From positions 1 through 49,334 of the forward strand of contig JAJYXI010000071.1 of assembly GCA_021791055.1 (NCBI GenBank): a stretch of 49,334 nucleotides of DNA. The letters run 5' to 3'. Source of the stretch: Nitrospirota bacterium. GTDB taxonomy: Bacteria; Nitrospirota; Thermodesulfovibrionia; Thermodesulfovibrionales; Dissulfurispiraceae. Under the pieces are notes generated by a model that saw nothing but the letters and a program-made list of their open reading frames with translations, ran no database searches and was not told the DNA's origin. Shown here in pieces: positions 44,149-48,311 of this stretch (the first letter of the stretch is position 1; each line of letters begins with the position of its first letter). A program made the position numbers and the translations under genes.

Positions 44149-45672
44149 CTATGCATAAGTTCCTTGCGTTGTAGTCATAGCACGTTCCTCATTGGACATG
44201 TTAGCCAGACGTTCGACTTCTTTTACATCAAGATTTAAGCCTTCGGCAACACGGCGTCCATAACCAGGGTCTGCCTTGTAGAAGAGGGCGGTCTGGCGAT
44301 ACTGGATGCGTTTTTGTGCGCCTCCCAGATGGGCTGCAATATTACCTATCAGATGGTCTCGAGCTGTGTCTGTCATGACCTTACGATACAAATCCCCAGC
44401 CTGCACGAAATCATCATTTGGATGAGTATATCTTTGGCGTGCTGCCTTGCCGGATACTTCAAAGGGAGGCTCGGCAACAGAGGGTTCGGGTACAGGACCG
44501 CCAAAGCTGTTAGGGTAGTAATTTGGGCTGCCGCCGCCATTGTTGTCAAACCTCATGAACCCGTCGCGCTGGTAGTTGTTCACCGGGCACCCTTTGGCTG
44601 AGTTAACCGGCAAGAGATGGTAGTTAGGCCCAAGACGGTGACGATGGGTGTCGTGATAGCTGAAAAGGCGACCCTGCAGCATCTTGTCCGGTGATGCAGC
44701 AATACCATGCACGAAGTTGGCGGGGGAGAAGGCGGCCTGTTCCACCTCAGCAAAGTAGTTTTCCGGGTTGCGGTTAAGCACCATGCGGCCGATTGTGATT
44801 GGCGGAAAGTCTGCATGGGGCCAGACCTTTGTGATGTCGAAGGGATCAAACCGGTAATCGGCAGCCTGCTCGGGTATCATAATCTGCACTTCCAGCCTCC
44901 ACGACGGATATTCCCCCCTTTCGATAGACCGGTAGAGGTCACGGGTAGCATGGTCTGGGTCCTTTCCCTTCATCACCTCTGCCTCTTCTTTTGTCAGGTT
45001 CTGGATTCCCTGTTCTGTTTTGAAATGGTATTGCACCCAAAAATACTCGCCCTTATCGTTATACCACTTGAAGGTGTGGCTGCTGTAGCCGTTCATATGG
45101 CGGTAACTTCTGGGTGTGCCCCGGTCCGAAAAGAGAATGGTAACCTGGTGTATGGACTCCGGCGTTAGCGATAAGAAATCCCAAAACATGTCAGGGTCCT
45201 TCAGGTTGGTTGCAGGATGCCGTTTTTGAGTATGGATAAAATCAGGAAACTTCAGCGGGTCTCTTATGAAGAAGACAGGGGTGTTATTCCCCACCATGTC
45301 ATAGTTGCCTTCCTCTGTATAGAACTTCACTGCAAATCCGCGCGGGTCTCGTTCCGCGTCGGCAGATCCCTTCATATCGCCCACTGTAGAGAAACGGACA
45401 AAAATCTCTGTGCGTTTGCCTATTTCAGAAAGGAACTTTGCCCTCGTATATTTGGTCACATCAGCAGTGACTTCGAAGTAACCATAAACACCTGCGCCTT
45501 TGGCATGCACCACACGTTCAGGAATTCGTTCCCGATCGAAATGTGCCAGTTTTTCAAGCAGATGGACATCCTGCATCAGAACAGGTCCCGGGATGCCAGT
45601 GGTTAGGGAGTTCTGGTCATCATCCACCGGCGCTCCAAAGTTATTGGTAAGTGTCTTACTTTTATTCTCCAT
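44149..45672 (-). CDS. katA: Monofunctional haem catalase
   Basis: 507 residues from the ATG at 45672 (MENKSKTLT), preceded by AGGAGG; the upstream ATG is rejected. The active-site residues are present: His in [16 protein letters not shown], Asn in [10 protein letters not shown], and the proximal haem Tyr in [14 protein letters not shown]. It dismutates hydrogen peroxide. The length fits the small-subunit catalases. It is a typical target of the PerR-type regulator found nearby. Confidence 0.95.
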
Positions 45673-45727
45673 ACTAACCTCCTGATACATTAATTATAAA
45701 GCATCTCCTTTTTCAGGGTTTTTGTTT

Positions 45728-46368: not shown

Positions 46369-46773
46369 TTACCGTCTCTTTCCTCGACACTCCCTGCAGC
46401 AGCCATAATACTCAAAGCGCATCTCATTCACCTTAAAACCGGTCTTTTGTTCCACGCTCTTTAGGGGTATGGGCAAGTCTTCCATGAAATCCTGAATTTT
46501 TCCGCATTTCATACAGATGAGATTAAGATGATTCGATATATTACCTTCATATCGGTTCTCCATGTCGTAAAATTCGATTTCCTTTATCAATCCCTCTTTT
46601 TTCAACATGTTCAGAGTATAGTAAACCGTTGACATGCTCATCTTCGGGGCCTTTTTTCTTGCCTTTGTCAGGATATCCTGGACGCTCGGGTGACTTTTGT
46701 CACTGGAAAGGATATCTATAATCTCAAGCCTCTGAGGAGTGAGCTTAAGCCCCTTTTCTTTCAGGCCATTCAA
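46369..46773 (-). CDS. Fur/PerR-family metalloregulator
   Basis: 134 residues from a TTG at 46773. The frame is open some 18 codons further up but has no standard start there, so the N-terminus is uncertain. The winged helix (LKLTPQRLEIIDILSSDKSHPS and MSTVYYTLNML) is complete. The C-terminal half has CMKCGK and CCREC, a structural zinc site. Catalase, superoxide dismutase and nitroreductase genes nearby favour a peroxide-sensing PerR role over iron control. Confidence 0.85.
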   Translation of the reverse strand: MNGLKEKGLKLTPQRLEIIDILSSDKSHPSVQDILTKARKKAPKMSMSTVYYTLNMLKKEGLIKEIEFYDMENRYEGNISNHLNLICMKCGKIQDFMEDLPIPLKSVEQKTGFKVNEMRFEYYGCCRECRGKRR

Positions 46774-46900: not shown

Positions 46901-47029
46901 TCAAACCTGTGGCATGTCTTTTTTCAAGGATGCAATATCCACCTGAATCCCTTCTTCCTTCACTCTGCAGTATGGAACAAGGAGCTCTGAATCCTCAAAA
47001 TTGTCTGCACTGATAATCAATGCCTTCAC
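46901..47029 (-). pseudogene. DJ-1/PfpI-family N-terminal fragment
   Basis: A GTG start with GGAGGTG 8 nt upstream opens a 42-residue frame: KALIISADNFEDSELLVPY, then VKEEGIQVDIASLKKDM. This is the first two strands and helix of DJ-1/PfpI proteins, which are normally about 165-190 residues. The frame then ends, and the catalytic Cys segment is not found downstream. The ribosome site is intact, so a short peptide could still be made, but it is most likely a remnant of a deleted gene. Confidence 0.6.
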
Positions 47030-47120: not shown

Positions 47121-47330
47121 TTACAACTGTTTTTCTTTATAGGTGCTTATCCCGAGCACCTTCCAGAGAGGTCAAAAGCCAAAGATACCAGTGAAAAGGG
47201 CTATAATAGCAACGAGAAGTGTAACGGCTTGAACCCCTCCCCCAATCGGTGCAAATAACCCTACAATGGCAAGAACGATTCCAGCAATTATCCTTAATGC
47301 CTTATCAATTCCTCCGACATTCTTCTTCAA
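47121..47330 (-). CDS. DUF2892 membrane protein with in-frame TGA at a conserved Cys: candidate selenoprotein
   Basis: The start is TTG at 47330 with AGGAGG 8 nt upstream. The frame gives MKKNVGGIDKALRIIAGIVL, two hydrophobic helices and LFTGIFGF, then TGA (47172-47174), then PLWKVLGISTYKEKQL to a TAA, 69 codons in all. This matches DUF2892 membrane proteins end to end, whose second helix is followed by GFCPLY-LLG-T. The TGA replaces exactly that Cys. A perfect 7-bp hairpin lies 11-31 nt after the TGA. Decoding as selenocysteine is the best single explanation. Otherwise the protein ends after 52 residues as a nonsense mutant. Confidence 0.75.
47141..47161 (-). promoter_or_regulatory. SECIS-like hairpin in the DUF2892 gene
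   Basis: On the minus strand AGGTGCT and AGCACCT form a perfect stem with the loop CGGGATA. The loop begins 18 nt after the TGA, and G is its second base. Bacterial SECIS elements of the E. coli fdhF type have a short stem with G in the first two loop positions and the loop about 16-37 nt after the UGA, so all these conditions are met. Confidence 0.65.
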
Positions 47331-47391
47331 TTTTTTTTCCTCCTTTACTTGACTGTTCTTCTTATCAACCTTTATCAGTGTACAGAGCGTC

Positions 47392-47706
47392 CTATTGTCC
47401 TCCTTTCTTCCCGCGGGTGCCGCCCAAGGCAGGGAACCCTCCGGGGTCTGGCTCTGACCCTCTTTTAAGGATTTCCAATCGTCTTTTCATTGCCTCTATC
47501 TCTGTCTGTTGAGCTGCGATTATATCCTCTGCAAGCTTACACACTATGGGATCCTTTCCATGAATAAGCAGGAGGCGAGCCATTTCAATCGCACCTTTAT
47601 GATGCGGAATCATCATTGCCAGAAAATCTACATTAGGATCTCCAGAATAACCCGGTGCATGCATGTCGTCCATCATCTTTTCCATCCTCTTAATCATCTT
47701 ATCCAT
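47392..47706 (-). CDS. DUF305-family protein
   Basis: 104 residues. The signature DFLAMMIPHHKGAIEMARLLL, with the paired His, and a later AAQQTEIEAMKRRL helix define the DUF305 family, four-helix proteins often linked to copper or other metals. Most members have a signal peptide; here the frame begins in the first helix and a stop lies just upstream, so the N-terminus may be lost or the protein may be cytoplasmic. The C-terminal tail is Gly-rich and unusual (GGFPALGGTRGKKGGQ). Confidence 0.75.
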   Translation of the reverse strand: MDKMIKRMEKMMDDMHAPGYSGDPNVDFLAMMIPHHKGAIEMARLLLIHGKDPIVCKLAEDIIAAQQTEIEAMKRRLEILKRGSEPDPGGFPALGGTRGKKGGQ

Positions 47707-47752: not shown

Positions 47753-48188
47753 CTAAACCCTTTTCTTGAATTCATGTTCAGGCCAGAAACCCTGTTCTGC
47801 CATAGCATTTATTATATTCTTCCTGCTGATTATACCTACGAGCTTTTTATTCTTTACAACTGGCAATATGGAGAATCCCAGAGAATACATAATCTCTACA
47901 ATATCCTCTATCGGTGTATCGGATGTTACAGTAACAGGGGTGCTGCAGACCTCATGCTCTGCATGGCCGCAGCTCATAACGGATTCGGCACTGAACTCAT
48001 GAATGGTTCTTCCTTCTTTAAGGGCATCCAGAATATCATACTCTGAGACAATACCAATAACCTCAAGGTTATCGTTCACCACGGGCAGGGTAAGGACACA
48101 TCAGCTTTTTCAAAAGTTCAATACCCCTCTCCTTTGCTGGTAAACTAACCCTGGGATGCATTATATCTTTTGCAGTTATACAAGACAT
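47753..48188 (-). pseudogene. CBS-domain pair protein, frameshifted
   Basis: The gene begins at 48188 (AAGGAG upstream) with MSCITAKDIMHPRVSLPAKE, runs to KKLMCPYPA and stops at 48069. The -1 frame continues with LPVVNDNLEVIGIVSEYDIL and a complete second CBS domain (LGFSILPVVKNKKLVGIISR) to 47753. Joining the frames near 48085 restores a normal two-CBS protein of about 145 residues. CBS pairs bind adenylate ligands. A small deletion, natural or from sequencing, explains the break. The C-terminal 109 residues could be translated alone but have no ribosome site. Confidence 0.75.
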
Positions 48189-48311
48189 TTTTTTCTCCTT
48201 TCAGGCATAGCGCCTCATTAAAGATTTGTAAAATATCCCTTAAAAAAGGGTATCATATTTTTAAACAATGCCAAGGACATAAACTCCAACGAATATTCCT
48301 TACTATATCTG

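Follow-up and report, generated by a model that had tools for sequence, protein, structure and literature searches.

Does the in-frame TGA of a short minus-strand gene in a Nitrospirota genome end a membrane protein after 52 residues, or is it read as selenocysteine (Sec) within a protein of 69? We addressed this question for the window, i.e., the whole stretch of 49,334 nucleotides analysed here (contig JAJYXI010000071.1 of assembly GCA_021791055.1), where an earlier note, made from the letters alone, had pointed to a DUF2892 gene with a TGA at its conserved Cys and a hairpin downstream. An in-frame UGA at the Cys position of homologues, with homology on both sides, is one criterion for a selenoprotein gene, and both parts of it are found at this locus (Table 1). 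From comparative sequence evidence we consider it very probable that the gene product is a bacterial selenoprotein, namely the Sec form of a YgaP-like two-helix membrane protein, with Sec predicted to be inserted at residue 53.

Table 1. Positions of the putative selenoprotein gene, its signals and neighbouring genes in the window
Feature	Position	Strand	Basis or detail
Putative DUF2892 selenoprotein gene, 69 aa	47121..47330	minus	PF11127 match, 76.4 bits with Cys at the TGA
Shine-Dalgarno AGGAGG of the DUF2892 gene	47339..47344	minus	8 nt before the TTG start
UGA codon, residue 53, at the invariant Cys of PF11127	47172..47174	minus	Alignment of 59 sequences
SECIS hairpin, predicted	47141..47161	minus	Arms 47161-47155 and 47147-47141, loop 47154-47148
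DUF305 gene, directly upstream of the DUF2892 gene	47392..47706	minus	PF03713, 63 bits
Cytochrome P460 gene	48312..48860	minus	PF16694
Catalase gene	44149..45690	minus	PF00199
Fur/PerR-type regulator gene	46369..46773	minus	PF01475, 110 bits

Reading frame, protein family and predicted hairpin

The frame runs from a TTG start at 47330 through 52 codons, the TGA and 16 further codons to a TAA stop at 47123-47121, giving the protein MKKNVGGIDKALRIIAGIVLAIVGLFAPIGGGVQAVTLLVAIIALFTGIFGFUPLWKVLGISTYKEKQL, in which U marks the TGA residue; translation of the plus strand over the same interval does not give the DUF2892 protein. The Shine-Dalgarno motif that the earlier note had reported at the start is indeed there. 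Residues 1-67 align with positions 1-66 of the 66 in the Pfam profile PF11127 (YgaP-like TM, DUF2892), and the score lies above the Pfam gathering cut-off of 25.3 bits, which places the protein in the family. Since the alignment continues through residue 67, homology extends beyond the TGA, and the family resemblance claimed for both sides of that codon is borne out over the whole profile. The claim that the TGA substitutes a conserved Cys also holds, as each of the 59 aligned sequences has either Cys or the TGA in column 53. The protein fits no NCBIfam model, and no match was returned by an Rfam scan of the gene, a PDB sequence search with the protein or a search for it on plasmids.

Downstream of the TGA, the transcript is predicted to fold into AGGUGCU-CGGGAUA-AGCACCU, a perfect 7-bp stem with a 7-nt loop whose second base is G. 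The stem begins 10 nt and the loop 17 nt downstream of the TGA, so that the stem and loop G described earlier stand, but the distance of 18 nt given with them fits roughly the loop and not the stem. Published limits for bSECIS elements comprise a loop of 3-9 nt, a stem of 4-16 bp, a distance of 16-37 nt from the UGA, a G within the first two loop positions and a minimum free energy (MFE) of -7.5 or lower (PMC13188914), and the hairpin lies within all of them (loop 7, stem 7, loop start CG, 17 nt, and -11.3 kcal/mol for the 45 nt counted from the TGA). Taken alone, a hairpin of this kind in a single sequence is not very unlikely to arise by chance: synonymous codon shuffling of the gene produced a stem of at least 6 bp in 7% of trials, and the folding z-score of this gene sequence by itself is -1.6. 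The earlier argument that TGA and hairpin would hardly coincide by chance gains little from the hairpin of this one sequence and is sustained through conservation across relatives, described below. An intrinsic terminator, which would have a T run behind a GC-rich hairpin, was rejected, as the hairpin lies inside the reading frame and is then followed by ATAAAGAAAAA. The SECIS DNA pattern had no match among viral contigs.

Selenocysteine machinery and alternative fates of the UGA

We propose that SelB with Sec-tRNA would meet the ribosome at the in-frame UGA, where it would be held by the coding-region SECIS hairpin starting 10 nt downstream, yielding a 69-residue inner-membrane protein with two TM helices followed by Sec53-Pro at the edge of the membrane, then a short helix and a basic tail. 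The genome of the window (G000) encodes much of the machinery that such decoding would use, including selA (633 bits), selB (381 bits) and a selD that itself carries a TGA, in RAAGUAAK, together with an FdhA with a TGA in CARLUHAPT. The FdhA and SelD hairpins of this genome are comparable to that of the DUF2892 gene, with loops at 19 and 17 nt from the UGA, respectively. Two close Fdh-alpha copies occur in G000 (C49:9524-11545 and C38:79267-81291), one with a TGA at the Sec site and the other without an internal stop. Of the genomes carrying the TGA gene, 12 were tested, and every one has selD as well as a TGA-containing Fdh-alpha gene.

Of the genes that the earlier note suggested looking for, selA, selB and selD are thus in the genome, but tRNA-Sec (selC) was found in the draft assembly neither by covariance model nor by the pattern TTCAAA...GGTTCRANTCC. 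A tRNA-Sec (UCA) is present in eight other TGA-gene genomes (G012, G033, G045, G188, G330, G342, G381 and G398), is cut off at a contig end in G228, and was not found in G174, G250 and G288. Two genomes of the same genus as the window's, G001 and G002, have selC, which in G001 is flanked by a small conserved gene on one side and a lysine-rich/radical-SAM gene pair on the other. In G000 these two flanks are on separate contigs (C5 and C27), and C27 stops 153 bases past the shared sequence, in a transposase-like tail (L152 2900-3037) that may be IS256-like. Since selC would be expected where a contig breaks off in a transposase-like fragment, either an assembly break or a loss could account for its absence.

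If selC has been lost to an insertion sequence, the Sec form, though real in the family, would be dead in this genome, where UGA would act as a stop and the product would have 52 residues. The missing selC and the transposase-like fragment at its syntenic site fit such a decay, as do a fragmentary DJ-1/PfpI gene downstream of the DUF2892 gene (a gene start of 42 residues, 46901-47029, minus strand) and a CBS-domain gene upstream (47753-48190, minus strand) with an apparent one-base frameshift near 48100. However, the assembly has intact SelA and SelB and intact Sec-type SelD and FdhA, which would be unexpected long after selC had been lost; the gap coincides with the end of a contig, as is left when repeats interrupt an assembly; and the Sec gene retains its frame, its Shine-Dalgarno motif and a full hairpin. 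We regard decay in this genome as improbable.

Hardly credible is a reading in which the UGA would be decoded as Cys by a selC*-type tRNA-Cys, leaving an ordinary Cys protein. G000 does contain a tRNA-Sec-like tRNA of this type with a long variable arm (C71:61270-61392; L002 1501-1623), and selC* tRNA-Cys occurs in Nitrospirae, in some cases with a UCA anticodon (PMC7609411). However, the anticodon of the G000 tRNA is GCA, which decodes UGC and UGU, so UGA is not readable by it; relatives carry a canonical tRNA-Sec with UCA, and the same genome has UGA at the known Sec sites of FdhA and SelD. An alternative genetic code was likewise rejected, because TGA is the final stop of the DUF2892 gene in G033, G045, G174 and G250. 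The selC*-type tRNA lies directly upstream of a gene resembling a YeeE/YedE-type permease.

Conservation of the TGA and its hairpin in Nitrospirota

A search of 60 related genomes identified three further genes with one in-frame TGA each, at 61-68% identity, and a profile built from the four TGA genes was run over 396 genomes of the phylum Nitrospirota. Among the best 14 profile matches, 13 genomes have exactly one TGA, the exception being a TGT gene in G371, and one additional TGA gene was found on a UBA6898 contig. The TGA therefore occupies the same codon in 14 Nitrospirota genomes, including that of the window, from at least five families and at least ten genera, with four families (f1, f4, f9 and f13) in the same order as the genome of the window and one (f15) in the same class; the remaining relatives have TGC or TGT at this position. 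The earlier suggestion to look for the TGA elsewhere was thereby rewarded in 13 other genomes. One of the two peptide patterns used in the wide genome search could not detect FGFCPLWK with a TGA in it, and that search may therefore have overlooked Sec forms outside Nitrospirota.

Counting as a hairpin any stem of at least 6 bp whose loop lies 16-37 nt beyond the TGA and has G as its first or second base, we found one in 13 of the 14 TGA genes (the window's included) compared to 9 of the 94 different Cys genes (Fisher p 3e-10, with kinship ignored), and synonymous shuffling of each TGA gene gave a qualifying stem in 3-7%. TGA homologues without a hairpin had been named beforehand as evidence against the proposal, and one such case exists against the 13 that carry it: in G398 (L132), close to the end of a contig, the gene still has its TGA, but both the frame behind it and the hairpin have decayed. 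This gene is likely a dying copy or a product of poor sequence.

The strongest evidence for the predicted hairpin is codon use. In 27 codon columns, 11 or more of the 13 members share the residue and synonymous codons are possible; four of these are monomorphic in codon, and they are exactly the stem codons V58, L59, S62 and T63 (GTG, CTC, AGC and ACC), a coincidence that would occur at random once in 17,550. At codon 57 the residue itself varies between K, A and S (AAG, GCG, TCG), with the paired third-base G retained, and upstream third positions in the TGA genes are 34% identical as a pairwise mean. The arms GGTGCT/AGCACC are invariant in 13 of the 14 TGA genes, and the covariation that the earlier note had hoped to test yielded no compensatory stem changes among them; since the stem is invariant, support for the hairpin comes from constraint and not from covariation. 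Conservation across relatives nevertheless raises the predicted hairpin above chance. It is scarcely conceivable that a Cys codon became the TGA through a nonsense mutation or an error of sequencing, accompanied by a chance stem such as 7% of shuffles produce, when 14 genomes from at least ten genera share this TGA and the stem codons stay fixed where other third positions are saturated, and a pseudogene or sequencing error was rejected on this conservation of TGA and stem.

The G371 gene (L134 1408-1698) is the nearest Cys form and is placed among the Sec forms, in a tree that is poorly resolved. It reads TGT ... AAA GTA CTC, with AAA GTA in place of AAG GTG, two silent changes that break two stem pairs. 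At least one lineage within the Sec group seems to have returned to Cys, with a matching silent decay of the SECIS stem, and this Cys form would represent a natural experiment on SECIS decay after Sec has been abandoned. G371 retains a tRNA-Sec and a Sec-type FdhA; selD was not found in this genome, which is 83% complete.

Relation to known systems and possible function

The protein shares with the Cys forms of PF11127 its fold, the NVGGID start, two TM helices and the placement of the critical residue, with Sec at the invariant Cys after TM2, but it differs in the TGA with its SECIS hairpin and in the motif UPLW[KAS]VLG, where Cys forms mostly have CPLY, CPPY or CPAW. It resembles bSECIS selenoproteins such as FdhA and SelD in having a UGA at a Cys position and a loop-G hairpin 17 nt downstream. 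Sec forms have been listed for the sulfur-related YeeE/YedE and rhodanese proteins (PMC13188914), but these are other families, for which no homology to the DUF2892 protein was found. Among the 119 families and subfamilies of prokaryotic selenoproteins catalogued in 2026, PF11127, DUF2892 and YgaP do not occur (PMC13188914); the earlier note, too, knew of no described selenium form of this family. Our literature search found no paper linking DUF2892 or YgaP with a selenoprotein, within a coverage that excluded most subscription papers and therefore allows for an earlier report. The novelty lies in a putative selenium form of a family otherwise known with Cys alone; Sec would be inserted by the mechanism already described for bacteria.

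An AF2 model from 59 sequences (mean pLDDT 92.6) predicts TM helices at residues 7-26 and 31-50 and a short helix at 54-59, with Sec53 just after TM2; a Foldseek search with this model had no hit at E <= 0.001, as would be expected for a two-helix protein. Sec53 aligns with Cys159 of E. coli YgaP (b2668) at the end of TM2, and the DUF2892 protein corresponds to the TM part of YgaP alone, without the N-terminal rhodanese domain. In YgaP, Cys159 is reported to lie near a thiocyanate-binding site, TM2 packs tighter upon SCN- binding, and the protein has been proposed as a thiocyanate exporter (PMC4730233). Lysines in the tail, together with the cytosolic location of the YgaP rhodanese domain, suggest that the Sec53 end of the protein is on the cytosolic side.

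The catalase, Fur-type regulator, Fe-SOD, DUF305 and cytochrome P460 genes of the window agree with an oxidative-stress setting. G012 also has an Fe-SOD gene, G174 a rubrerythrin-like gene, and in G045 a P460 gene (PF16694) lies directly upstream of the Sec gene, but beyond such weak oxidative-stress themes no conserved neighbourhood was found among the Sec-bearing genomes. The DUF305 gene taken as a partner in the earlier note does adjoin the DUF2892 gene in the window, but was not seen beside it in other genomes. Since neighbourhoods are not conserved, homology alone points to function.

On that footing, a single selenol at the edge of the membrane, in the place of Cys159, may serve as a fast nucleophile at the cytosolic face for sulfane sulfur/persulfide or peroxide, a proposal that we regard as roughly evenly poised. 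Alternatively, the Sec residue might act in the binding or export of a metal, selenium or an anion and not in redox chemistry or sulfur transfer, as the proposal of thiocyanate export by YgaP would suggest (PMC4730233). The DUF305 and cytochrome P460 genes nearby would suit such a role. However, the neighbours vary across Sec-bearing genomes and a single selenol without a second Cys makes an unusual metal site, and we consider binding or export a possible but rather doubtful function. For the redox or sulfur-transfer reading as a whole, i.e., a new Nitrospirota family of two-helix inner-membrane selenoproteins with a selenol in the place of Cys159, handling sulfane sulfur or peroxide, and with at least one lineage back to Cys, we see an even chance.

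With this gene the selenoproteome would gain a family whose members automated annotation would cut at 52 residues. The role of the invariant Cys of PF11127 becomes testable through Sec/Cys/Ser exchange, and its replacement by Sec in one lineage suggests that this residue is probably reactive, a redox-type nucleophile.
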